Part shown: piece by piece, positions 22,184 to 42,423 of the stretch
Numbering within the stretch: position 1 is the first letter of the stretch
Layout: each line of letters starts with the position of its first letter
Source of the DNA: Brevibacterium linens ATCC 9172
Lineage (GTDB): Bacteria; Actinomycetota; Actinomycetes; Actinomycetales; Brevibacteriaceae
Length of the DNA: 64,000 nucleotides
Direction: 5' to 3'
Assembly: GCF_900169165.1 (NCBI RefSeq)
Contig: NZ_FXYY01000012.1
Location: forward strand, 1 to 64,000
Position numbers and translations under genes: made by a program
The notes under the pieces: model-generated
What the model saw: only the letters and a program-made list of their open reading frames with translations
The model's database searches: none
Told to the model about the DNA's origin: nothing

Positions 22184-23290
22184 ATGACCATTGACGTTCC
22201 CACCACAGGCCGCTCACTGCCCCAGCTGCAGCCGATCAGCTTCATCGGCGCAGATGGCCGGCTCACCAACACTCCGACCGAAGGGCTGCGGATCCCCAGC
22301 GATGCCACCCTCACCGGTCTCTACCGGCAGATGGTCCTCGTCCGCCGGTTCGAAGCACAGGTCACGCACCTGACCCGGCAGGGTCGGCTCGCGACCTATC
22401 CCTCCGCGGCAGGTCAGGAAGCCGCCGAGGTGGGGGCCACCACCGCACTGGCGCCGAACGACTGGCTCTTCCCCACCTACCGTGACTCGGCAGCGCTGCT
22501 GACCCGCGGGGTGCCCGTCGCCGAGATCCTCGCCGCCTTCCGTGGGGACTGGCACTGCGGTTTCGATCCGCACGAATATCACACCTCACCTGCGGCGACA
22601 CCGCTGGCGACGCAGACCCTGCATGCCACGGGCTTCGCGATGGCCGCGAAGCTCAAAGGCGAGGATGCCGCGACTCTGACCTTCCTCGGCGATGGCGCCA
22701 GTAGCGAAGGCGATACCCACGAGGCGTTCAACTTCGCCTCCGTATGGCAGACCCCGACGGTCTTCGTCCTGCAGAACAACCAGTACGCGATCTCCACTCC
22801 CCTGCGGGAGCAGACGAATGCGACGATGCTCGCCGACCGGGCCGCCGGCTACGGAATGCCGGGCCTGCGCGTCGACGGCAATGACGTCGCCGCCGTATTC
22901 GCCGCCGTCTCCGCGGCGCTGGCGCGCGGTCGCAACGGAGATGGTCCGACCCTCATCGAGTGCCTCACCTACCGGATGGAGTCGCACACGAACTCCGACG
23001 ATCCGACGAAGTACCGTGACACCGAGGAGGTCGAGCACTGGAAGCAGTTCGATCCCATCGACCGTCTCGAGAAGTACCTGCGACAGACCGGTGCCCTCGA
23101 CGATGCCACGATCGAACAGATCGCCGAGGAGGCAGAGACCCTGGCTGCGTCCGTCCGCGATGCCATGAACCAAGAGGCCGAGATCGACCCGCGCGAGCTC
23201 TTCGCGCACGTCTACGCGACCCCGCGCACTGCCCTGGCCGAGCAGCAGCAGGTCCTCGAAGCCGAACTCGCAGCGGCGGGTCACGCATGA
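22184..23290 (+). CDS. pdhA: 2-oxoacid dehydrogenase E1 component, alpha subunit
   Basis: Thiamine-diphosphate half of the decarboxylating E1 enzyme that feeds an acyl group to the lipoyl E2. The 368-residue chain has the ThDP motif GDGASSEGDTHEAFNFASVWQTP...NNQYAIS, the YPSAAGQEAAEVGA active-site region, and the phosphorylation-loop analogue YRMESHTNSDDPTKYR. Its stop overlaps the E1-beta start by four bases. Whether the substrate is pyruvate or a branched-chain 2-oxoacid cannot be settled by eye; no E3 gene is present here. The symbol is the usual one for this actinobacterial subfamily. Confidence 0.88.
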   Translation: MTIDVPTTGRSLPQLQPISFIGADGRLTNTPTEGLRIPSDATLTGLYRQMVLVRRFEAQVTHLTRQGRLATYPSAAGQEAAEVGATTALAPNDWLFPTYRDSAALLTRGVPVAEILAAFRGDWHCGFDPHEYHTSPAATPLATQTLHATGFAMAAKLKGEDAATLTFLGDGASSEGDTHEAFNFASVWQTPTVFVLQNNQYAISTPLREQTNATMLADRAAGYGMPGLRVDGNDVAAVFAAVSAALARGRNGDGPTLIECLTYRMESHTNSDDPTKYRDTEEVEHWKQFDPIDRLEKYLRQTGALDDATIEQIAEEAETLAASVRDAMNQEAEIDPRELFAHVYATPRTALAEQQQVLEAELAAAGHA

Positions 23291-24342
23291 GCGTCGAAAC
23301 GGGCACCGATCCGACCGTGGTGAACGGCGAAACGACCACAGCCGCCTCGGCGACAGCACCCACCCCGTCGTCGGTGACGATGACGAAGGCACTCAATCAG
23401 GCGCTGCGCGATTCTCTGGCCGACGACGACACAGTGCTCGTCTTCGGCGAGGATGTCGGTCGCCTCGGCGGGGTCTTCCGGGTCACCGAAGGTCTGCGAG
23501 CCGAATTCGGGTCGAACCGCGTCTGGGATTCTCCGCTTGCGGAGTCGGGCATCATCGGCACGGCGATCGGCATGGCGATGAACGGCATGCGGCCCGTTGT
23601 CGAGATGCAGTTCGACGCCTACGCCTACCCTGCTTTCGAGCAGATCGTCTCGCACGTGGCGAAGATGCGGAACCGGACGAAGGGCCGGGTCAGCCTGCCG
23701 ATCACGATCCGGATTCCCTATGCCGGCGACATCGGCGGAGTCGAGCATCACTCCGATTCCTCGGAAGTCTATTGGACGTCGACGCCGGGGCTGACCGTCG
23801 TCACGCCGTCGAATCCGGCCGATGCGTACTCCCTGCTGCGCGAATCGATCGCCTCCGACGACCCGGTCGTGTTCATGGAGCCGAAGTCGCGGTACTGGAT
23901 GAAGGAGACGCTGTCCCTGCCCGTGACGACGGCACCGATGAATCGGGCGCAGGTCATCCGCGAGGGCACCGACGCCACCCTACTCGCCTACGGCCCGACC
24001 GTGCGCACGGCACTCGATTCTGCCGAGACCGGAGCCGAACACGGATTGTCCATCGAGGTCATCGACCTGCGTACACTCTCGCCGTTCGACGATGAGACTG
24101 TGTCCGCATCGGTGCGCAAGACCTCGCGTGCGGCGATCATCCACGAGGCCGCGCAGTTCGGCGGCTACGGCGCCGAGGTGGCCGCTCGCCTCACCGAACG
24201 CAACTTCACTCATCTGTCGGCCCCGATCCTGCGGGTCGCCGGGTTCGATGTGCCCTATCCGTCGCCGAAGCTCGAGGAGTTCTACTTGCCGACCGTCGAA
24301 CGCGTACTCGATGCGCTCGAGTCCTGGGATTGGGAGCTGTGA
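23287..24342 (+). CDS. pdhB: 2-oxoacid dehydrogenase E1 component, beta subunit
   Basis: The 351-residue partner of the upstream E1 alpha. A pyrimidine-binding domain (SVTMTKALNQALRDSLADDD, VLVFGEDVGRLGGVFRVTEGL) is followed by a transketolase C-terminal domain (EVIDLRTLSPFDDETV). Conserved DSPLAESGIIGTAIGMAMNGMRPV and MRNRTKGRVSLPITIRIPYAG segments are intact. A 35-residue Thr/Ala-rich N-terminal stretch precedes the fold. The stop codon shares one base with the E2 start codon, so all three subunits are translationally coupled. Confidence 0.92.
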   Translation: MSVETGTDPTVVNGETTTAASATAPTPSSVTMTKALNQALRDSLADDDTVLVFGEDVGRLGGVFRVTEGLRAEFGSNRVWDSPLAESGIIGTAIGMAMNGMRPVVEMQFDAYAYPAFEQIVSHVAKMRNRTKGRVSLPITIRIPYAGDIGGVEHHSDSSEVYWTSTPGLTVVTPSNPADAYSLLRESIASDDPVVFMEPKSRYWMKETLSLPVTTAPMNRAQVIREGTDATLLAYGPTVRTALDSAETGAEHGLSIEVIDLRTLSPFDDETVSASVRKTSRAAIIHEAAQFGGYGAEVAARLTERNFTHLSAPILRVAGFDVPYPSPKLEEFYLPTVERVLDALESWDWEL

Positions 24343-25751
24343 TGAGTGCTGACGTGAATACGGGTACGCGCGAGTTCATCCTTCCCGACCTCGGCGAAGG
24401 CCTCACCGAGGCGGAGCTGATCTCGTGGAAGGTCGAGATCGGAGACGAGGTCCACGTCGATCAGATGGTCGTCGAGGTCGAGTCCGCGAAGTCCGTCGTC
24501 GAGCTCCCCTGCCCGTACGCCGGGCAGGTCGTCAGCCTTCACGCGAACGCAGGGGACACCGTCAGCGCAGGCCAGGCCCTGCTCACCGTCGCCGAGGCGG
24601 GGGTCGAGGCAGGCGCGGGTCCTGGGGCAGGCACGGGTGCTGAGTCGGCGGACAGCGAATCGGGCGGCGCGAACCTCATCGGCTACGGCACTTCGGAACC
24701 GAAGACCCGTTCGGCGAAGAAGCGCTCGTTCGGCGGCAAGAACGCGGCGGCGCCCGCTGTTCCGACCGTCATCCCGGATGCCCCGTCGCAGCCCCCGGCC
24801 GAAACCCCGGCTTCCCCCAGCAACTCATCGACGACTGCGAACGACCGTGTCTCCCCCGTGTCCTCGCCACTGGTGCGCAAGCTCGCAAAGGATCACGGCA
24901 TCAGTGCCAAGAGCCTGCCCGGCACGGGCCCCGGCGGGGTCGTGACCAGGGCTGATGTCATGGCCGCGATCGAGTCCGGGGCAGGTGCCGCTGCCCACGT
25001 CCCCGCGGGGACGTCACCGGCGAAGGCATCTTCGCCTGCTGCGAGCTCCGACCAGAGCGACCGCGATACCCGCACCCCGATCACGGGACTGCGCAAGGTC
25101 GTGTCCGAACGCCTGACGAAGTCGCGGCAGGAGATCCCCGAGGCCACAATCTGGCTCGACGTCGACGCCACCGAGCTGCTGGCGACGAAGAAGGCGCTCG
25201 AGGCCCGCACGGGTGAGAAGTATTCGCTGCTCTCGCTCGTCGCCCGCTTCGTCGTGGCCGGTCTGAAGAAGTACCCGATCATCAACTCGTCAATCGATAC
25301 GGCCGCCGGTGAGATCGTCACCCACGGCGAAATCAACCTCGGCCTGGCCGCGCAGACCCCGCGCGGGCTCATGGTCCCCGTCGTCCACGGGGCCGGCGAG
25401 ATGAGCCTGCGGCAGCTGCGCGACTCCGTGTCCGGAACCGTCGGGAAGGCCGCCTCGGGGAAGTTCGATCCGTCCGAACTGACCGGCGGCACGTTCACCC
25501 TGAACAACTACGGGGTGTTCGGCGTCGACGGTTCGGCCCCGATCATCAACCTCCCCGAGGTGGCGATGCTCGGCCTCGGCCGGATCAAGGACCGCCCGTG
25601 GGTCGTTGACGGCGAGTTGACCGTGCGCAAGGTGATGTACCTGTCGTTCGTCTTCGACCACCGGGCGTGCGATGGTCAGGAGCCGAGTGAGTTCCTCACC
25701 TTCGTCGCCGACTGCATCGAGAATCCGATCTCGCTGCTGCCCGAGCTCTGA
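24342..25751 (+). CDS. pdhC: Dihydrolipoamide acyltransferase, E2 component
   Basis: Core subunit of the complex; it transfers the acyl group from lipoyl-lysine to CoA. 469 residues from the ATG at 24342 (TGATG overlap). Domains: lipoyl domain with Lys50 in VEVESAKSVVEL; Ala/Pro/Ser linker (about 90-165); peripheral-subunit-binding domain (SPLVRKLAKDHGISAKSLPG); a second flexible linker; catalytic domain with TGLRKVVSERLTKSRQEIP, NNYGVFGVDGSAPIINLPE and the active-site FDHRACDG near the C-terminus. One lipoyl domain only, as in many branched-chain and actinobacterial E2 proteins. Confidence 0.93.
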   Translation: MSADVNTGTREFILPDLGEGLTEAELISWKVEIGDEVHVDQMVVEVESAKSVVELPCPYAGQVVSLHANAGDTVSAGQALLTVAEAGVEAGAGPGAGTGAESADSESGGANLIGYGTSEPKTRSAKKRSFGGKNAAAPAVPTVIPDAPSQPPAETPASPSNSSTTANDRVSPVSSPLVRKLAKDHGISAKSLPGTGPGGVVTRADVMAAIESGAGAAAHVPAGTSPAKASSPAASSDQSDRDTRTPITGLRKVVSERLTKSRQEIPEATIWLDVDATELLATKKALEARTGEKYSLLSLVARFVVAGLKKYPIINSSIDTAAGEIVTHGEINLGLAAQTPRGLMVPVVHGAGEMSLRQLRDSVSGTVGKAASGKFDPSELTGGTFTLNNYGVFGVDGSAPIINLPEVAMLGLGRIKDRPWVVDGELTVRKVMYLSFVFDHRACDGQEPSEFLTFVADCIENPISLLPEL

Positions 25752-31919: not shown

Positions 31920-33314
31920 TCAGTCAGCCACGTAGTACATGCGCTTGTTGACGAATTCGTCCATGCCGTAGGGGCCGAGCTCGCGGCCGAAGCCCGAGCG
32001 CTTGGTGCCGCCGAACGGGATCTCCGCGCCTTCACCGGCAGGGGTGTTGACATTCGACATGCCGACGTCGAGGCGCTGAGCGAGCTTCGCGGCACGCTCG
32101 GAATCCTTGGCGAACACGGCGCCGCCGAGGCCGAAGCGCGAGTCATTGGCCAGGGCCAGTGCCTCGTCATCGCTGGTGACCTTGTAGACGGTGGCCACAG
32201 GTCCGAAGAGCTCCTCGCGGTAGGCGTCCATCTCCGAGGTGACTCCGGTGAGCACGGCCGGCGAGACATAGGCCGAACCGTCGCTGGCGAGCTCGCCGCC
32301 GACGAGGGTCGCACCCTGCTCGACGGCGCGGTCGAGCTGCTTGCGCAGGTTCTCGGCGGCCGAACGCGAGGACAGGGGCGAGTATTTGCCGTCGCCCGCC
32401 TCGGCGGGGGTGCCCTTCTCCCAGGACTGGGCACGCTCGGTCAGACCGGACACGAAGTCGTCGTAGATGTCGTCCATGACGATCATCCGCTTGTTCGCGT
32501 TGCAGACCTGGCCGGTGTTGTACAGGCGGGTGCCCCACGCGGTATCGACGGCCTCGTTCATGTCATCGGTGTCGAGGACGATGTAGGGGTCGGATCCGCC
32601 GAGCTCGAGCACGGCCTTCTTCAGGTACTTGCCCGCGGTCGCGGCCACGGCGGACCCGGCGCGCTCGGAACCGGTCAGGGACACACCTTCGACGCGGTCG
32701 TCGGCGATGATCGTCTCGATCTGCTCATGGGTGGCGTAGATGTTGGAGTACACGCCTTCGGGGATGCCGGCTTCCTTCATGATCTCGGCGATCTTCGCCG
32801 AGGAGCGGGGGCAGATCTCCGCGTGCTTGAGGATGATCGTGTTGCCGAGCACGAGGTTCGGTGCGGCGAAGCGGGCGACCTGGTAGTAGGGGAAGTTCCA
32901 GGGCATGATACCCAGCAGCGGGCCGACGGGGCGACGCTGGATGAAGGCCTTTCCGCCCGACATCGATTCGATCGGCTCATCGGCGGCGAACTTCGGTCCG
33001 TTGTTCGCATAGTAGTTGAAGATCTCTTCGCAGAACTCGGCCTCTTCCTCACCTTCGGCGGTGGGCTTGCCCATCTCCTCGGCGATGATCTCCGCGAGCT
33101 CGGCCTTGCGCTCTCCGAAGAGAGCGGCAACCTTGTTGACGATCGCGGCACGTTCTTCGATCGTCTTCTCGCGCCAGCTCAGGTAGCCCGTGTGTGCGGA
33201 TTCGAGGACCTGTTGGACCTCTTCGTCGGTGGCATTGTCGAACTTCTCGACGACCTCGCCCGTGGCCGGGTTCTCGACACGGTAACCGCCTGCAGCACTG
33301 CCTACGTTGCTCAT
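31920..33314 (-). CDS. gabD: NAD(P)-dependent aldehyde dehydrogenase, succinate-semialdehyde type
   Basis: Oxidises an aldehyde to the acid; closest in pattern to succinate-semialdehyde dehydrogenases. 464 residues. Seen: GIMPWNFPYYQVARFAAPNLVLGN (cofactor pocket), VSLTGSERAGSAVA, catalytic Glu in LELGGSDPYIVL, catalytic Cys in YNTGQVCNANKRMIV, and EELFGPVATVYKV. Start ATG at 33314 with GAAGGAG upstream. It stands alone; an elaborate inverted repeat lies in its 5' region (GCATAC 33363-33368 with GTATGC 33397-33402, nested around CCGTC/GACGG). Confidence 0.88.
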   Translation of the reverse strand: MSNVGSAAGGYRVENPATGEVVEKFDNATDEEVQQVLESAHTGYLSWREKTIEERAAIVNKVAALFGERKAELAEIIAEEMGKPTAEGEEEAEFCEEIFNYYANNGPKFAADEPIESMSGGKAFIQRRPVGPLLGIMPWNFPYYQVARFAAPNLVLGNTIILKHAEICPRSSAKIAEIMKEAGIPEGVYSNIYATHEQIETIIADDRVEGVSLTGSERAGSAVAATAGKYLKKAVLELGGSDPYIVLDTDDMNEAVDTAWGTRLYNTGQVCNANKRMIVMDDIYDDFVSGLTERAQSWEKGTPAEAGDGKYSPLSSRSAAENLRKQLDRAVEQGATLVGGELASDGSAYVSPAVLTGVTSEMDAYREELFGPVATVYKVTSDDEALALANDSRFGLGGAVFAKDSERAAKLAQRLDVGMSNVNTPAGEGAEIPFGGTKRSGFGRELGPYGMDEFVNKRMYYVAD

Positions 33315-33667: not shown

Positions 33668-36111
33668 TCACCGCCCCACGAGGTCGAGCGCCGCAGAGAC
33701 GATCGAGTCCGTGTCGATTCCGTGGAGCGCATGTGCCTGACTCACCGAGGAGGCCTGACCGAATTCCGTGACGCCGAGGTTGCGGGTGCGATCCCCGCGC
33801 ACTCCGGCGAGGAAGGCCAGCGTGTGCGGGTGTCCGTCGAGGACGGTCACCAGGGGCGCGGGATGCGCGGCCGGGAACAGTTCGTCGGCGATGGCCGATC
33901 GGCGGCTCTGCCCCACCCGTCCGCGCTCCTGCACGGAGCGGAAGACCTTCGACGCCGAGCTGAGGCAGACGATTCCGGCCCGCACGCCCAGGGATTCCAG
34001 TCGGGCCGCAGCCGTGATGACCTCGGTCATGATCGCGCCGGCGCCGACGAGCGTGACCTCGTCCTCGGCAGCGGGACGGGCCGAGAGCCGGTAGCCTCCG
34101 GCGATGACCTGTTCGCGGCGGCGTTCGCGCAGCAGCGGATCCTCGGGCACTGCGGCGAGCTCCTGGGCCACGGGCCTGGTGGTCAGGCGGAAGTACGCCG
34201 AATCCCCGTGCGGGTCGGCGAGTTCGCGCAGCGCCTCGAGCAGGGTCCACTCGAGGTCCTGGGCGAAGGCCGGCTCCCAGCTCGTCAAGCCCGGGATCTC
34301 CAGAGTAACCGAGGGCGTGTTGAACGACTGGTGCGCCCCGCCCCGCCCTCGGGCGCGAGCGTGACTCCCGACGGCGTGCCGACCATGATCGAGCGCCCAC
34401 CGGCGTAGAGGCTGAACGTCCACGGTTCGAGGGCGCGGTTGATGAACGGATCGTAGATCGTCGCGATCGGCAGCAGCGGCTGTCCCCACCGGCTCCCGGT
34501 CGTCCCGAGCTCACCGGCCAGGGAGACGAGGTTGACCTCGGCGATGCCCATCTCGATGTGCTGACCGCGCGAGCCCTCCTGCCATTTGAGGACTCGTTCC
34601 CGGTCATCGGAGAACCAGTCCTCCCGCCCGGCCGGGGACCAGATCCCGGTCTTGTTGATCCACCCGCCGAGGTTGGTCGACGTGGCCACGTCCGGTGAGA
34701 CGGTGACGACGCGGCGGGCCACCTCGGGGGCGACGTGCTTGAGGTCGGAGAGGAACCGACCCAGCGTGGCCTGGGTGGAGATCGTCGGCCGCGGGGAGAA
34801 ACCCAGCTCAGCGGGCACCTCGGCGACGGTGTGGGTCTCATGGCCCTCGCGGCGCAGGCGCTCGGCGGTCTGGGCGCAGAGCCTCCCGGCCGGGGTGTCG
34901 GGGTCGAAGCGGACCCACGGATCGTCGAGGTCCACCCCCGAGGCGGCCGCGAGGTCGCGCATCTGCGCCTCGGTGAGCTGGGCGGCGTGGTTGCCCGGGT
35001 GGCCCTCGGTGGCGAGCCCCTTGCCCTTGATCGTGTACGCGAAGACGACGGTGGGTCGGTCGTCGTCGATGGCCTCGAAGGCCTCGACGAGCTGCCCGAG
35101 GTCGTGTCCGCCGAGGTCGCGGATGAGGGAGGCGATCTCATCGGGTGAGAACGGGTCGATGACCGCGCGCAGCGCCGTGGCCGCGGACTCGTCGAGGCCG
35201 GCGAGCAGACGGTCGTGGACCTCGGTGGGGTGAGCGCGCAGGAGCCGCTGGTATTCGGGGTTGGGCATCGACACGAGCCGGTCTTTGAGCGCCTGCCCGC
35301 CCGGGGCGGCGAAGACGGCCTCGAGGCGGCGCCCCCACGGGCAGGTGAGGACCTGCCAGCCGGCGGCGGCGAACATGCCCTGGAGGCGCTTGATCTGCAC
35401 GTCGGGGATGACCCGGTCGAGGGACTGCCGGTTGAGGTCGACGATCCACACGATCTCGCCGAGGGTGCGCACCTCGGGGTCGATGATGGCCTCCCATACC
35501 GCGCCTTCGTCCATCTCGGCATCCCCGAGCAGCGAATAGAAGCGCCCGGCCCGTGGGGTGTCGGGGAACCGGTCGGAGACGTAGCGGTGGGACAGTGCGG
35601 CCCAGATCGGGGCGGTCGCGCCGATGCCCACCGACCCCGTGGAGAAGTCGACGGTGTCGGGGTCCTTCGTCCGGGAGGGGTAGGGCTGGAGTCCTCCGCG
35701 GCTGCGCAGCGTGTCCAGATGGTGTTCGGCGAGATCGCCGAGGAGGTAGTTGATCGCGTGGAGGACCGGTGAGGCGTGGGGCTTGACCGAGACCCTGTCG
35801 ATCGAGCGCAGGCGGGCGAACCACAGGGCGGTCATGATGCCCGCCATCGAGGCCGAGGACGACTGGTGGCCGCCGACCTTGACCCCATCGGGGTTCTCCC
35901 GTCCCCGATTGGCCCGGTCGATGATCGACGTGGCCAGCCAGAGCACGCGCTGGGCGATCTCGTCGAGGACCCGGTCCTCCCCCGAGGCCGAGGCCCGCAG
36001 CGGTCTGTCGTTCGTGCCGGGCGGGCTGACCTGGATCGAGGTCTCGAACTGGTGGCGATCCTGCTCGTGGTCGCCGTCGTGCGGGGGCTGAGATCCGTGT
36101 GCGGCCGTCAT
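33668..36111 (-). pseudogene. Homodimeric-type (AceE/MdeB-like) 2-oxoacid dehydrogenase E1, frameshifted
   Basis: Thiamine-dependent decarboxylating E1. The first frame (ATG at 36111) encodes transketolase-like domains with DGVKVGGHQSSSASMAGIM, VSVKPHASPVLHAINYLLG, ThDP motif GDAEMDEG (196-203)...NRQS (227-230), and GQHIEMGIAEVNLVSLAGEL. It leaves frame near residue 591 and stops at 34285. The rest (HQSFNTPSVTLEIPGLTSWE onwards, to the stop at 33668) continues in another frame. The junction is three tandem copies of CGCCC (34334-34348). Removing one copy restores one open frame of exactly 813 codons. So the gene is broken, switchable by repeat slippage, or affected by a sequencing error. Adjacent to ACC deaminase, whose product 2-oxobutyrate is a natural substrate for such an enzyme. 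Confidence 0.85.
34334..34348. repeat. (CGCCC)3 tandem repeat at the E1 frameshift
   Basis: Three perfect 5-bp units inside the coding region. Two units give the uninterrupted family sequence APEGGA-HQS; three units shift the frame. Confidence 0.85.
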
Positions 36112-36166
36112 CTCATCGATCCTTCCTCAAGGGGGTGGCTGTGTCGTGGGATGGGCGTCGTCCCGA

Positions 36167-37183
36167 TCAGAAGATCGAGGAGTAGGCGTTGAGGGCCAGC
36201 TGCCCGCCGAGGTGGGCGTAGAGGACGGTCGAATCCGATCCGATCGTGCCTTCAGCAACGAGGTCGAGGAGCCCGGCCATCGACTTGCCTTCGTAGACGG
36301 GGTCGAGGATGACGCCTTCGAGCTGGGCGGTGGTGCGGATCGCCTCGACGGTCGAATCGTCGGGGATGCCGTAGGCGGGTCCTTCCCAACCCGAGCGGAT
36401 GTCGACCTCGTCGGCGGTGATCTCACGCCCGAGGCCGATGAGTTCGGCAGTGGTGTTCGCGATCCTCTTCACCTGATCGCGGGTCTTGACGATCGTGGCC
36501 GATGCGTCGATGCCGATGACCTTGCGCTTGGGTCCTCCGGCGGCTTCGAGAGCGGCGAATCCGGCGATCATTCCGGCATGCGTCGACCCGGTCACGGTGC
36601 ACACGACGATGGTGTCGAAGAAGACGCCGAGCTCCTTTTCCTGTGCGGCGACCTCATACGCCCAGTTCGCGAAGCCCAGCCCGCCGAACCTGTGCTCCGA
36701 GGCTCCGGCCGGGATCGGGTAGGGCCTGCCGCCGGACTCTTCGACCTCGTGCAGGGCGTTCTCCCAGCTCGAGCGGATGCCGATGTCGAATCCGGCGGAG
36801 TCGAGGCGGACGTCGGCGCCCATGATGCGGGAGAGCTCGATGTTGCCGACCTTGTCGTTGACCGGGTCCTCCCAGTCGACCCAGCGCTCCTGCACGAGGC
36901 GCGCCTTCAGTCCCAGGTGGGCAGCGACCGCGGCGACCTGGCGGGTGTGGTTGGACTGGTAGCCGCCGATGGACACGAGCGTGTCCGCACCCGAGGCGAG
37001 GATGTCGGGGACGATGTACTCGAGTTTGCGGGTCTTGTTGCCGCCGAAGGCGAGTCCCGAATTGACGTCCTCGCGTTTGGCCCAGACCCTGGCCCCGCCG
37101 AGGTGGTCGCTCAGTCTCGGGAGTTCGTGCACGGGGCTGGGGCCGAAGGTCAGTGGGTAGCGTTCGAAATCGGTGATGGCCAT
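36167..37183 (-). CDS. acdS: 1-aminocyclopropane-1-carboxylate (ACC) deaminase
   Basis: PLP enzyme opening the ACC ring to 2-oxobutyrate and ammonia. From the ATG at 37183 (GAGG upstream) it is 338 residues, the length of characterised ACC deaminases. Seen: [28 protein letters not shown] (PLP Lys50), [33 protein letters not shown], and [13 protein letters not shown]. The Glu of VYEGKS (about 298) and the Leu of YAHLGG are the residues that separate true ACC deaminases from the sister D-cysteine desulfhydrases, so I favour ACC deaminase. It lies 55 bases upstream of the E1 gene on the same strand and opposite a GntR regulator. Confidence 0.88.
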
Positions 37184-37511
37184 GGTGTCCTCTGTTCTCT
37201 GGGCGGTGGGGGATCTCCGGGCGACGGTGCTCGACGGCTCCCCGACGGCGCCGGTGCGAACCGCGGCCGCGGTGGCGGCCGCCCGACTCCGGGCGGACGG
37301 GGTGTGTCCGGTGACGAGGCGTGCCGGATGAGGCATGCCCTGCGTCGGTGTGTCCTGGATCGCAACGTGCAATATGCAATATATTGCATTCTGGACGTGC
37401 ATACAATGAGCACAGACCATTCGCGTCGCCCAGCTCGGCCGATGGCACCGATCAGAGGCCTCCACCGACGAGCTGCGACGAGAGCGAACTCCGAGAACGA
37501 AAGGGCCGAGC
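37184..37511. other. Divergent region acdS / GntR with 16-bp perfect palindrome
   Basis: 328 bases without a gene. The palindrome ATGCAATATATTGCAT (37374-37389) is perfect, and a second partial half-site GTGCAATATGCA abuts it on the left. It is AT-rich in a GC-rich setting and lies between the two divergent genes. It is the likely operator for the adjacent GntR protein. Confidence 0.6.
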
Positions 37512-38171
37512 GTGCCGATCCCCACGGACTCACCGGTGGCGCACCGCACTCTGCTGCGCGATGACGTCTACCGTTCGATCCGCGATGCCATCGTCCGCGG
37601 TCAGCTCGCCCCGGACGAGCAGCTGCGCGACCAGGAGCTCGGCGCCTGGCTGCAGGTCTCCCGGACGCCCGTGCGGGAGGCGCTGCAGCGCCTGGCCCAG
37701 GCCGGGCTCGTCGTGGCAGAGCCGGGCCGGATGACGCGCGTGGCCCCTGAGGATCCGGAGCGCATCCTCGCGGCCCGGCAGATCGCCGCTGAACTCCACG
37801 GTCTGGCGATCGACCTCGCCTTCCCAACTCTCGACGAGGCAGCTCTGAATGAGATGGGGCAGGCGAACGATCGTTTGAGTGCGGCCCTCGCAGCCGGCGA
37901 GGCCGAGGCGGCGATCGCCGCCGATGATGACTTCCACGAAGTGGCCCTCACCCGATCCTCCAACCCCCTCATTCCCGATCACCTCGAGGTCGTCACCGCC
38001 ACTCTGCGCCGAGCGGAGTTCCTGCACTTCGAATCGGTGAAGGGATCGGCCTCACCGGAGCAGCACACCGAGATCATCGCCGCCGTCCGTGCCGGTGAAC
38101 ATGCGCATGCCGTCGCACTGACGAAGGCGAACTGGTCAACCATCGAAGGGGATTCGCCGCAGACGGCCTGA
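37512..38171 (+). CDS. GntR-family (FCD subfamily) regulator divergent from acdS
   Basis: 219 residues from a GTG at 37512. Winged helix-turn-helix ([40 protein letters not shown]) and FCD domain with conserved acidic/His positions ([40 protein letters not shown]). Divergent from the acdS-E1 pair, so most likely the regulator of ACC / 2-oxobutyrate catabolism. In proteobacteria acdS is usually controlled by an Lrp-type AcdR; a GntR neighbour is different. Confidence 0.9.
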
Positions 38172-39199: not shown

Positions 39200-39219
39200 A
39201 ACACTTGAAGGAGAGCACC

Positions 39220-39933
39220 ATGACGTCCACCGTCGGACTCGTCGAACGCCTCACTCGCGACATCGTCGACACCATCCGCACCGAACACCTCCAACCCGGG
39301 CAGACCCTGCCCTCGGCCAAGGTCCTCGCCGCACGCTTCGAGGTCACCGTGCCCACCGTCCGAGAGGCCCTGCGCCGACTCGAAGCCACGGGCTCGGTCG
39401 AACTCAAGCACGGCTCGGGCACCTACGTCCGCGAAGCGATCAACCGCCGCATCCTCGACAACCCGCACTATGTGCCCGTCGACCTCGCAGCGGCCATCGA
39501 ACTCCTCGATGCCCGCATCGCCATCGAACCCGGCATCGCCGAGCTCGCAGCGACGGTCCAGGCGGCGGATGCCGTGGCTTCCATGGAGTCCGCGCTCGAC
39601 AATGCCCTCCAGGTCGAGACCGCGGTCCCGGCCGGTCACTTCCACGTCGAACTCGCTCGCGCTTCGGGCAACCGCGCTCTGCACGAGATGCTGGTGTCCC
39701 TGCTGGCCATCCATTCGCGGACCCAGCAGGCGGCACGCACGAGCTACGACCGCCTGCGCGACCACGACGAACACGCGGACATCCTCGATGCGATCCGTCG
39801 CGGCGACGGCTTCGAAGCCTCCCACCGCACCCGCAAGCACCTCGAGGCGATCAAGACCGCCGTCCTCGCCGACTGGACCGACGACACCATCAAGGACGGC
39901 AGTGCCGACACCATCGCAGGACCCCAGCGATGA
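39220..39933 (+). CDS. GntR-family (FCD subfamily) regulator
   Basis: 237 residues from the ATG at 39220 (GAAGGAGAG upstream; an in-frame TTG at 39205 is less likely). FadR-like helix-turn-helix (VERLTRDIVDTIRTEHLQPG, FEVTVPTVREALRRLEATGS, SGTYVREA) and FCD domain (GHFHVELARASGN, DHDEHADILDAIRRGD, RTRKHLEAIK). First gene of an operon with a creatininase-family hydrolase (ATGA overlap) and an AbgT transporter. It very likely controls that operon and, by a shared site, the upstream esterase gene. Confidence 0.9.
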   Translation: MTSTVGLVERLTRDIVDTIRTEHLQPGQTLPSAKVLAARFEVTVPTVREALRRLEATGSVELKHGSGTYVREAINRRILDNPHYVPVDLAAAIELLDARIAIEPGIAELAATVQAADAVASMESALDNALQVETAVPAGHFHVELARASGNRALHEMLVSLLAIHSRTQQAARTSYDRLRDHDEHADILDAIRRGDGFEASHRTRKHLEAIKTAVLADWTDDTIKDGSADTIAGPQR

Positions 39934-40751
39934 GCCGCCCGGTGATCTCCGAGATCCGCCCGCATATCCGCGACTACGCCGAACTGACCTCGCTGGAGGT
40001 CGAACTCGCGAAGGACCGAAACAGCTTGCTCGTCCTTCCCGTCGGCGCCTGCGAACAGCACGGGGACGGACTTCCCCTGGGCACCGACACCATCCGCGCC
40101 GCTCACGTCGCCCGCGCCGTCGTCGACCGGCTCCGCGACAGCGCCGACGGCGGTCGGGTTCGGGCGGGCAGCGCCTTCGTCCTGCCGAGCATCGACTACG
40201 GCGTCTCCCCGCATCACCGGTTCCTGCCCGGCACGATCAACATCGGCCCGCAGCTGTTCGTCGACCTCGTCACCTCGATCGTGGGCCAGCTCGCCGATGC
40301 CGGATTCGACCGGCTCCTCGTCATCACCGGACACGGCGGCAACCTCTCAGCCCTCGGCGTGGTCCAGCAGGACCTGCTCGCCACCCACCCCGACTTCGTC
40401 TTCGCCTACGCCCCGGTCTCCGGCTTGGCCACCGAGGCGACTGCCGCCCTTCCCCGTACCGAGGTCAGCGGCCACTGCGGAGAGTCCGAGACCTCGCAGA
40501 TGCTCGCCATAGACGAATCCCTCGTCGATTCTGGCCATCTCAACCCCGGCGCCACCCGGCTCGACGATCTCGACCCGCGCGCCCGACTCTCGCGAACGAA
40601 GTCACCGTCAACAGCGGTGACGTTCGATCGCTATGCCGACAACGGCGTCCTCGGCGATCCACGCACCGCCACGGCCGCGGCCGGGGAGGACATCCTCGGC
40701 GAGGTCATCGACCGACTCGTCGCCTACTGTCAGGAGCTGCAGAAACTGTGA
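39930..40751 (+). CDS. Creatininase-family amidohydrolase
   Basis: A 273-residue metal-dependent hydrolase. Family metal ligands are visible: PVGACEQHGDGLPLGTDT (Glu, His, Asp), HHRFLPGTINIG, ITGHGGNLSAL, and the Glu in GHCGESETSQML. The segment after EQHG (DGLPLGTDT) is unlike that of authentic creatininase, and other family members act on formamides, lactams or inosose derivatives, so the substrate is open. The neighbouring AbgT-type importer suggests a substrate such as an aminobenzoyl-glutamate-like amide or dipeptide. A link to creatinine, given the creatinase gene 27 kb away, is possible but unsupported by motifs. Confidence 0.8.
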   Translation: MSRPVISEIRPHIRDYAELTSLEVELAKDRNSLLVLPVGACEQHGDGLPLGTDTIRAAHVARAVVDRLRDSADGGRVRAGSAFVLPSIDYGVSPHHRFLPGTINIGPQLFVDLVTSIVGQLADAGFDRLLVITGHGGNLSALGVVQQDLLATHPDFVFAYAPVSGLATEATAALPRTEVSGHCGESETSQMLAIDESLVDSGHLNPGATRLDDLDPRARLSRTKSPSTAVTFDRYADNGVLGDPRTATAAAGEDILGEVIDRLVAYCQELQKL

Positions 40752-40878
40752 CACCTGCTTCTCACTGACCGGCCGACCGGCCGACACCCCACCACAGATC
40801 ACCCGATTCCAGCGCCGGAATCACCGTGCCCTGGTGGACCCTGCCCGAAAATCCCGCCTGAACTCTCAGGAGCTCACG

Positions 40879-42423
40879 ATGAAACCGACCCAGACCACCG
40901 ATACCGTGCAGACCGACGAGCAGGAGAAGCTGCCGCTGGTCATCCGCGCCCTCAACGTCATCGAAGTCGTCGGCAACAAGCTGCCGAACCCCTTCTGGCT
41001 GTTCTGGATCCTCGCGGCGATCCTCGCCGTACTCAGCCTCGTCCTCTCCCTCGCCGGCGCGGGAGTCGAGGATCCCGGCACCGGGGAATGGACCCCGGTG
41101 AAGAATCTGCTCAGCGGCAGCGGCATCGCCATGGCCGTGAGCACCGCACTCGACGCCTATCGGACCTTCCCACCGCTGATCACGATCATGGTCGTCATCA
41201 TGGGTGTGGCCCTGGCCGAGCGCACCGGCCTGCTCTCGACGGCGATGAAGGTCTCGATCGCCCGTGTCCCGGCCGGACTCATCGTCTTCACGGTCGCGTT
41301 CATGGGCACGATCTCCCACGTCGCCTCGGCGGCGGCCTACGTCATCCTCGTGCCGCTCGGCGGGATGGTGTTCAAGGCCGTGGGCCGCTCCCCAGTCCTC
41401 GGCGTCATCGTCGCCTACACCTCGATCGCCTCCGGTTATGATGCCAGCCCGATCCCGACTCCCAACGACGCGATCTTCGCGGACATCACGACCGCCGCGG
41501 CGAACATCATCGACCCCGACTACATCGTCGCCCCGATCGGCAACTGGTACTTCAACATCGCCAGCTCCTTCCTCCTGGCCATCGTCATCACGATCGTCAC
41601 CGAGCTCGTGCTCATGAAGCGCGACAACCTCGAAGCCGACGAGGATGCCGAGCACGAAGACCTCGTCATCACCGACACGGAGCGGAAGGCTCTGCGCTGG
41701 TCGATGTTCGCCGTCATCGCCGCGATCATCGCCATCGTCGTGCTCGTCGTCCCCAAGGGAGCGCCTCTGCGCGGCGACGGACCCTTCGGCGAGTCCCCGT
41801 TCCTCACCGGAATCGCGTTCCTCATCGCTCTGCTCTTCGGCATCGGCGGCATCGTCTACGGCTTCCGCGAGGGCACGATCGAGACCTGGTCCGACGTGCC
41901 GAAGCTCATGGGGCAGGGCCTCGCATCGATCGCCGGGGTCCTCGTCCTCTTCTTCGCCATCGCCCAGTTCCTCGAGTACTTCGAGTGGACGAACATCGGC
42001 ATGCTCGTCTCGGTGTCCGTGTCCGAACTGTTCACCGGCCTCGGCCTGCCGACCTGGGTGGTGTTCATCCTCGTCCTGCTCGTGCTCTCCGTCGTCAACG
42101 TGCTCATCACCTCCGGCTCGGCGATGTGGGCAATCATGGCTCCGGTCATCGTGCCGCTGCTCATGCTGCTCGAGGTGCCGCCGGAGACCTCCCAGGCGAT
42201 CTTCCGCATCGCCGACTCGGGGTCGACGGCGATCACCCCGATGAGCCCGTACTTCATTCTCGCGCTCGGCTTCATGCAGAAGTATCAGAAGAGTGCCGGC
42301 ATCGGCACGCTCGCGTCGCACACCCTGCCCTTGGCCGTGTGCATGACGATCAGCTGGAGCCTGCTGTTCTTCCTGTGGTGGGGTCTGGGCATTCCGCTCG
42401 GCCCCGACGCCCCGGTGCGCTGA
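40879..42423 (+). CDS. AbgT-family transporter
   Basis: 514 residues from the ATG at 40879 (CAGGAG upstream), about 12 membrane segments. Family features: NKLPNPFWLFWILAAILAVL at the start, FMGTISHVASAAAYVILVPL, YTSIASGYDASPIPTPNDAI, a repeated half with NVLITSGSAMWAIMAPVIVP and RIADSGSTAITPMSPYFIL. AbgT proteins import p-aminobenzoyl-glutamate or export sulfonamides. It lies 127 bases after the creatininase-family gene under the same GntR control. Import of the hydrolase's substrate is the natural inference. Confidence 0.9.
   Translation: MKPTQTTDTVQTDEQEKLPLVIRALNVIEVVGNKLPNPFWLFWILAAILAVLSLVLSLAGAGVEDPGTGEWTPVKNLLSGSGIAMAVSTALDAYRTFPPLITIMVVIMGVALAERTGLLSTAMKVSIARVPAGLIVFTVAFMGTISHVASAAAYVILVPLGGMVFKAVGRSPVLGVIVAYTSIASGYDASPIPTPNDAIFADITTAAANIIDPDYIVAPIGNWYFNIASSFLLAIVITIVTELVLMKRDNLEADEDAEHEDLVITDTERKALRWSMFAVIAAIIAIVVLVVPKGAPLRGDGPFGESPFLTGIAFLIALLFGIGGIVYGFREGTIETWSDVPKLMGQGLASIAGVLVLFFAIAQFLEYFEWTNIGMLVSVSVSELFTGLGLPTWVVFILVLLVLSVVNVLITSGSAMWAIMAPVIVPLLMLLEVPPETSQAIFRIADSGSTAITPMSPYFILALGFMQKYQKSAGIGTLASHTLPLAVCMTISWSLLFFLWWGLGIPLGPDAPVR

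Follow-up and report, generated by a model that had tools for sequence, protein, structure and literature searches.

Pairing of the ACC deaminase gene acdS with an AceE-like dehydrogenase E1 gene in Brevibacterium linens and other bacteria: a probable route from ACC to propionyl-CoA

Introduction

The plant precursor of ethylene is 1-aminocyclopropane-1-carboxylate (ACC). ACC deaminase, the product of acdS, and methionine gamma-lyase have 2-oxobutyrate as their common product, and the mdeA-mdeB genes of Pseudomonas putida encode a methionine gamma-lyase together with an E1 component. Here we consider a locus of Brevibacterium linens ATCC 9172 in which acdS is followed by a gene for an AceE-like E1. 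It lies in a stretch of 64,000 nucleotides (positions 1 to 64,000 of contig NZ_FXYY01000012.1), referred to below as the window. We consider it likely that this locus is a dedicated module leading from ACC through 2-oxobutyrate to propionyl-CoA. Both the enzyme and the E1 type are known; it is their recurrent combination for which no description was found. Searches of the open-license PubMed Central (PMC) literature gave no paper on the acdS-E1 pairing, none that joins ACC deaminase, acdS and pyruvate dehydrogenase E1, and none that brings together any three out of ACC deaminase, lipoyl synthase, RidA and 2-oxobutyrate.

The closest described systems differ from this locus in the regulator, in the source of 2-oxobutyrate, or in the E1. 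In the acdR-acdS arrangement of Proteobacteria, acdS is likewise under a local regulator, the Lrp-type AcdR, whereas the window locus has a GntR/FCD gene. A GntR gene adjoining acdS, termed acd-AR, was reported in many Actinobacteria (Nascimento et al., 2014; PMC4048297), and the window locus resembles that arrangement, with acdS beside a gene of the GntR family. A 2023 review restates it, and the words "propionyl" and "dehydrogenase" are absent from that review (PMC10174264). Within open-license PMC, "acd-AR" and "ACC deaminase" occur together only in PMC4048297. Since GntR beside actinobacterial acdS was published in 2014, the GntR part of the locus is not new, and the GntR-acdS arrangement was rejected as a novelty. 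The differences from the acd-AR report concern the E1 and the operator: the main text of that paper, whose neighborhood Figure S2 forms a separate supplement, holds no word starting with "dehydrogenase", and the passages of it considered here give no operator sequence.

The likeness to mdeA-mdeB, judged by gene arrangement alone, lies in a 2-oxobutyrate-forming pyridoxal 5'-phosphate (PLP) enzyme adjoining an AceE-like E1, as is also seen in Ruegeria pomeroyi; the difference is that 2-oxobutyrate is formed from methionine there and would be formed from ACC here. Canonical AceE is homologous to the E1 of the window over most of its length, but the latter falls far under the AceE cut-off and is shorter (812 aa in the sister genome G320, compared with 886 in Escherichia coli).

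The acdS-E1 locus of the window

The locus comprises two genes on the minus strand, a divergent regulator gene and a palindrome between acdS and the regulator:

36167-37183, minus strand: acdS, ACC deaminase, 338 aa (TIGR01274, 533 bits; key residues kept relative to 1rqx)
34285-36111, minus strand: AceE-like E1, N-terminal part, in an open frame of 608 aa that has lost register at its very end (TIGR00759, 171 bits; 98-99% identical to the G320 E1)
33668-34489, minus strand: AceE-like E1, C-terminal part, in another frame (TIGR00759 profile positions 631-853; 99% identical to G320 residues 587-812)
34334-34338, minus strand: place of the frameshift in E1, a 5-bp length difference from G320 within a short GC-rich tandem repeat (DNA alignment)
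37374-37389, no strand: perfect 16-bp palindrome ATGCAATATATTGCAT, candidate GntR operator, between acdS and the GntR gene
37512-38171, plus strand: GntR/FCD regulator, placed as acd-AR is and divergent from acdS (PF00392 and PF07729)

By profile and active-site residues, AcdS is assigned as an ACC deaminase. It exceeds the cut-off of the TIGR01274 ACC deaminase equivalog (392 bits) in a profile search, and this is the sole profile above whose cut-off it scores. The alignment with Pseudomonas ACC deaminase (1rqx) retains the positions of Lys51, Ser78, the Tyr-Glu pair within VYEGKS, and Leu322, in agreement with the published list of key residues (Lys51, Ser78, Tyr, Glu and Leu322; PMC4048297). 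An enzyme of the same homologous family, a D-cysteine desulfhydrase or D-cysteate lyase, would instead supply pyruvate to the E1, and AcdS does match the profiles of D-cysteate sulfo-lyase (300 bits, below the cut-off of 450) and D-cysteine desulfhydrase (198-222 bits, below cut-offs of 289-610). Set against its score to ACC deaminase and the conserved Tyr-Glu and Leu322 positions, which separate the enzymes (PMC4048297), this identity is highly improbable, and it was rejected on the profile scores and the 1rqx alignment. In three further loci (L059, L143 and L144, of G025, G324 and G298), the ACC deaminase profile match ends at 308-312, short of the Leu322 region; the AcdS C-terminus may be altered there, and a linked E1 is absent from all three.

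The E1 gene begins 55 bp downstream of acdS. Its two pieces align to the AceE profile TIGR00759 over positions 69-633 and 631-853 with 171 and 46 bits; since this is far under the cut-off of 860, the E1 is placed in a divergent AceE subfamily and not with canonical AceE. The best Protein Data Bank match of the intact sister E1 is nonetheless the pyruvate dehydrogenase E1 of E. coli, over 744 residues. Two AceE genes above the cut-off were located elsewhere in the genome by profile search.

Most of what the initial annotation of the window had read from the sequence holds: acdS carries the VYEGKS/Leu signature, and a GntR gene and a perfect 16-bp palindrome occupy the divergent region. Its AceE/MdeB-like E1 adjoining acdS stands as to adjacency and AceE homology, but the frame is broken near 34.33 kb. 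It had also set the unit apart from acdS-AcdR (Lrp), which is right for the type of regulator; as to novelty, GntR beside acdS had already been published.

Recurrence and integrity of the pair within the genus

Among 57 genomes of the genus, acdS was found in 48 and an E1 of the window kind in 45. The E1 match lies downstream of the acdS match on the same strand, at a distance of 24-391 bp, in 30 of the 48 acdS-bearing genomes. In 14 genomes of the genus there is another type of E1, with 57-60% identity, that does not adjoin acdS; in 12 of the 14 it is divergent from one gene cluster, two representatives of which are AsnC/Lrp regulators. An unlinked E1 is present in 1 of the 30 acdS genomes with a linked E1, compared with 12 of the 18 without (Fisher p = 2.9e-6, raw counts). 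This suggests that an unlinked E1 replaces the acdS-linked E1. Correction for kinship, on a tree with 35 of the 48 acdS genomes, left 2 independent pairs whose branches were well supported, and the sign test was not significant; the suggestion that the two kinds of E1 exclude one another is thus weakened, and we do not rely on it.

In G320 the same E1 is a single open frame, 98-99% identical to the pieces in the window; the reading frame is intact there and not in the window. Open frames of at least 810 aa are present in 28 of the 30 acdS-linked E1 genes; the two that lack a full frame are that of the window, with its frameshift, and that of G302, truncated where its contig stops. Because the pieces still have such high identity to G320 and 28 of 30 linked copies are intact, the break is either a very recent mutation or an error of assembly. 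Because the frame is interrupted, the second step, decarboxylation of 2-oxobutyrate, may be lost in this strain.

A decaying locus, with the E1 newly turned pseudogene and ACC deamination alone left, is an evenly balanced possibility for the window strain and is compatible with the catabolic module proposed for the genus. Besides the frameshift, it is favored by the missing linked E1 in 18 of the 48 acdS genomes and by G272 (L124), which retains only the second E1 part and has no acdS; the near identity of the pieces to the intact sister gene and the open frames of the other linked copies speak against it. In L124 both acdS and GntR matches are absent, and the remaining E1, from residue 329 on, lies between the usual flanking genes in what is apparently a deletion. 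The gene calls likewise divide the unlinked E1 of L123 (G323) between two frames.

Recurrence outside the genus

From the phylum, 396 evenly sampled genomes, that of the window among them, were searched with an E1 threshold of E <= 1e-100. The E1 is present in 31 of them, acdS in 21 and both in 8. The two genes lie within 1 kb of one another in 4 of these 8 (G000, G359, G487 and G571); in the remaining 4 they are on different contigs (three genomes) or 14 kb apart (G437). A scan of GTDB contigs added 80 E1 loci, the best 80 of at least 590, and together with the phylum sample this gave 109 E1 loci outside the genus, at least 3 duplicate pairs included. In 7 of the 109, acdS lies within 1 kb of the E1: a metagenome-assembled genome (MAG) labeled as Acidimicrobiales (L188) and three loci that group with it on the E1 tree (L164, L166 and L170), a MAG labeled as Chloroflexi (L226), Actinoallomurus purpureus (L233) and Arthrobacter mangrovi (L260). 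Another family of the same order as Brevibacterium has the arrangement GntR-acdS-E1 (L075), and the pair was also found on plasmids of Rhodococcus pseudokoreensis, with the genes 2.1 kb apart, and Rhizobium etli 8C-3. The genes are in tandem in the window genus, L226, L233, L260 and L075, and divergent in L164, L166, L170 and L188, with GntR overlapping the E1 by 4 bp in L166. Outside the genus, the pairing is a minority arrangement.

The E1 and AcdS trees conflict over L075: its AcdS falls among genomes of the window order, its E1 next to the one from the Chloroflexi MAG. Parsimony gave 8 changes of linkage on the E1 tree (98 rows) and 16 on the AcdS tree (74 rows); both are quick trees on which gains and losses are pooled and loci cut by contig ends are scored as unlinked, and the 98 rows of the E1 tree are hand-chosen representatives of 171 sequences, 23 of 194 loci having no E1 frame of at least 650 aa. 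Given the tree conflict and the repeated changes of linkage, acdS and the E1 have most likely come together on more than one occasion. Chance adjacency of acdS and the E1 was rejected on the recurrence in the genus, the phylum sample and the outside-genus loci.

Neighbors of the E1 subfamily

Members of this E1 subfamily are currently annotated as "transketolase" or "pyruvate dehydrogenase". On the Rhodococcus pseudokoreensis plasmid, the gene order is acdS-lipA-RidA-E1-E2, and the other flank carries pdxS and a GntR gene; families were confirmed for the E2 (lipoyl and acyltransferase domains), LipA (lipoyl synthase) and RidA. In the Chloroflexi MAG, two genes are divergent from acdS-E1: lipA and an E2 gene whose product has a lipoyl, an E3-binding and an acyltransferase domain. 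Other Rhodococcus loci have AsnC-E1-E2, with acdS absent from the stretch read. In Rhizobium etli 8C-3, acdS and an E1 of 41% identity accompany a divergent Lrp/AsnC gene, so that the E1 pairing is not tied to one type of regulator.

A second kind of PLP enzyme recurs beside the E1. In 5 distinct loci the E1 adjoins a Cys/Met PLP enzyme that is nearest to methionine gamma-lyase and cystathionine gamma-synthase models; four of these are under every cut-off shown, and that of L193 is above the cut-off of a cystathionine gamma-synthase family. In Ruegeria pomeroyi an Lrp gene, an annotated methionine gamma-lyase gene and the E1 gene stand in a row. An AceE-type E1 beside a 2-oxobutyrate-forming PLP enzyme, the arrangement that would mark it as MdeB-like, is therefore found with acdS in the window and with methionine gamma-lyase in Ruegeria. 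The record carries newer locus tags, and we take the E1-neighbor gene to be SPOA0318. This has been described as the methionine gamma-lyase gene megL (PMC9870897).

E1 matches were present in 197 plasmid records, and 15 plasmid E1 stretches were inspected. An E2 adjoins the E1 in 5 of them (annotated in L274, L280, L283 and L290, and found by tblastn in L288), acdS is present in 2 and methionine gamma-lyase in 1; the two with acdS were chosen through the acdS match list, and these plasmid counts are not frequencies. On an Arthrobacter NicSoilE8 plasmid (L275), the E1 is accompanied by an AsnC regulator, with a class I/II aminotransferase gene directly downstream. Beside the Micromonospora E1, genes for GatA/GatB and a phosphoesterase recur, which is uninformative.

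Because E2, lipoyl synthase, RidA and methionine gamma-lyase adjoin the same E1 subfamily elsewhere, oxidation of 2-oxobutyrate is indicated. These neighbors lend support to the 2-oxobutyrate catabolic unit of the initial annotation, which had also taken a failure of the pair to co-occur in other genomes as grounds for giving the idea up; the pair recurs in 30 of 48 acdS genomes of the genus and in seven other lineages.

A route to propionyl-CoA and alternative roles of the E1

In the proposed module, AcdS would open ACC to yield 2-oxobutyrate and ammonia. The homodimeric-type E1, a divergent AceE relative with MdeB-like action, would decarboxylate 2-oxobutyrate and hand the propionyl group to a lipoylated E2, and the resulting propionyl-CoA would be taken up by the methylcitrate pathway. 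The window genus would borrow E2 and E3 from another cellular complex; on the Rhodococcus plasmid and in the Chloroflexi MAG, genes for E2 and lipoyl synthase belong to the locus itself. Gene identities, arrangement, recurrence and the conservation of the palindrome are observed; the substrate of the E1, the borrowing of an E2 and the channeling of propionyl-CoA are inferred. The genome holds four E2 matches, one of them of the actinobacterial SucB type and one in the window, in a second, heterotetrameric 2-oxo acid dehydrogenase cluster:

22184-25751, plus strand: E1alpha-E1beta-E2 cluster, 8 kb from the acdS-E1 locus

This cluster, which we take to be of the branched-chain type, is a possible E2 donor.

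Several observations weigh against this module. In the window itself, the E1 coding sequence is split (36111 to 34285, then to 33668 in a different frame), no E2 adjoins it, and the PrpD-like gene of the genome scores 886 bits, under the cut-off of 950. The linked E1 is missing in 18 of the 48 acdS genomes of the genus, 6 of which have no such E1 at all. At the level of the order, 20 neighborhoods were taken from among 35 further acdS genomes, and the E1 stands beside acdS in one of them (L075); within the phylum sample, it lies no more than 1 kb from acdS in 3 of the remaining 20 acdS genomes; and at two plasmid loci, those of Arthrobacter ERGS1:01 and Rhizobium tropici, it was not found near acdS. 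As to the neighbors, the methionine gamma-lyase-like proteins score under the NCBI methionine gamma-lyase cut-offs, and in 85 of the 109 outside-genus E1 loci, some on short contigs, the queries used found neither acdS, a methionine gamma-lyase-like enzyme nor a nearby GntR/AsnC gene. No family has more than 4 matches among 46 immediate E1 neighbors (AsnC 4, Cys/Met PLP enzyme 1). Finally, on a Tritonibacter plasmid (L276) the E1 lies inside a sugar ABC transporter operon, beside an epimerase gene, and given this member the subfamily need not be specific for 2-oxobutyrate.

Such unrelated contexts, together with the carboligase activity of the E. coli pyruvate dehydrogenase E1 (PMC7696235), are what would be expected if the E1 acted on pyruvate or another 2-oxo acid, or as a stand-alone carboligase, and its adjacency to acdS reflected shared regulation or chance. 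We regard this as improbable. The pairing is repeated, was most likely assembled more than once and involves two kinds of PLP enzyme able to form 2-oxobutyrate; E2 and LipA are present in some loci; and the genome already has two canonical AceE genes.

Of greater weight, and still rather unlikely, is a role in detoxification: by the same chemistry, the E1 would remove toxic 2-oxobutyrate, and ACC would serve mainly as a nitrogen source with no gain of carbon. RidA functions in the control of reactive intermediates, and its presence in the Rhodococcus locus fits this. An acdS without an adjoining E1 is common, and 2-oxobutyrate is toxic to many microorganisms (PMC7824062). A whole set of E1, E2 and LipA beside acdS would be a large investment for that purpose alone.

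The GntR regulator and its candidate operator

A gene of the GntR family adjoins acdS in the window, as in the acd-AR arrangement, and no Lrp/AsnC gene, as would be expected of AcdR, stands beside it. The divergent GntR/FCD protein probably represses acdS and the E1 through the palindrome, and ACC or 2-oxobutyrate would be the inducer. The palindrome ATGCAATATATTGCAT is a probable GntR operator, and its conservation indirectly favors control of acdS by this protein. Nowhere else in the 3.96-Mb genome is there a site with fewer than 2 mismatches, in keeping with a regulator that acts locally. A regulon was not found, the genome scan giving the one perfect site and one 2-mismatch site that, as read from translations of open reading frames alone, sits between a TetR-like and an ABC transporter gene.

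The stretch of 400 bp upstream of acdS was searched for the 14-bp core TGCAATATATTGCA, with up to 2 mismatches allowed. Of the 48 acdS genomes of the genus, 38 were taken, that of the window among them, and 36 of these have the core (26 exactly); so do 3 of 20 genomes from elsewhere in the order and, of 19 further loci, L260 alone. The motif was derived from the window and so favors close kin, and the sites of L062, L064, L068 and L260 are the better evidence. Simple letter shuffles gave 0 of 760, 0 of 400 and 0 of 380 for the three groups, respectively. Since the palindrome persists where a linked E1 is missing (L049, L052, L054, L056 and others), it belongs to the acdS-GntR unit. Another palindrome, around ATCGTATACGAT, occurs in the acdS-GntR intergenic region of the acidimicrobial-type loci L166 and L170.

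Other genes of the locus

Downstream of the E1, at a distance of 353 bp, lies a further gene:

31920-33314, minus strand: aldehyde dehydrogenase, succinate-semialdehyde dehydrogenase-like (PF00171)

It adjoins acdS also in several relatives without a linked E1, e.g., L049, L052, L054 and L056. It occurs with or without the E1 and is a possible but unproven member of the locus. On the other side, an FCD-type GntR gene, a creatininase-family protein gene and an AbgT-family transporter gene (39205-42423, plus strand) adjoin the acdS regulator, a cluster that is shared in many loci of the genus.

ACC as a possible nutrient

In the parts of the ACC deaminase literature considered here, the enzyme figures as a means of lowering plant ethylene, and little is said about what becomes of its product. 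A broader view, somewhat more probable than not, is that ACC is a nutrient with its own full degradation machinery, several lineages having independently joined acdS to a dedicated 2-oxobutyrate dehydrogenase complex, which comprises E1 and in certain lineages also E2, lipoyl synthase and RidA, and thereby converting ACC to ammonia and propionyl-CoA. If this is true, the main role of acdS in these bacteria would be catabolic, the supply of both carbon and nitrogen. A substrate is thereby proposed for an E1 family that carries the annotations given above, as is a candidate operator for the GntR regulators beside actinobacterial acdS, and the recurrent acdS-E1 set makes the question of whether acdS is a feeding gene directly testable.

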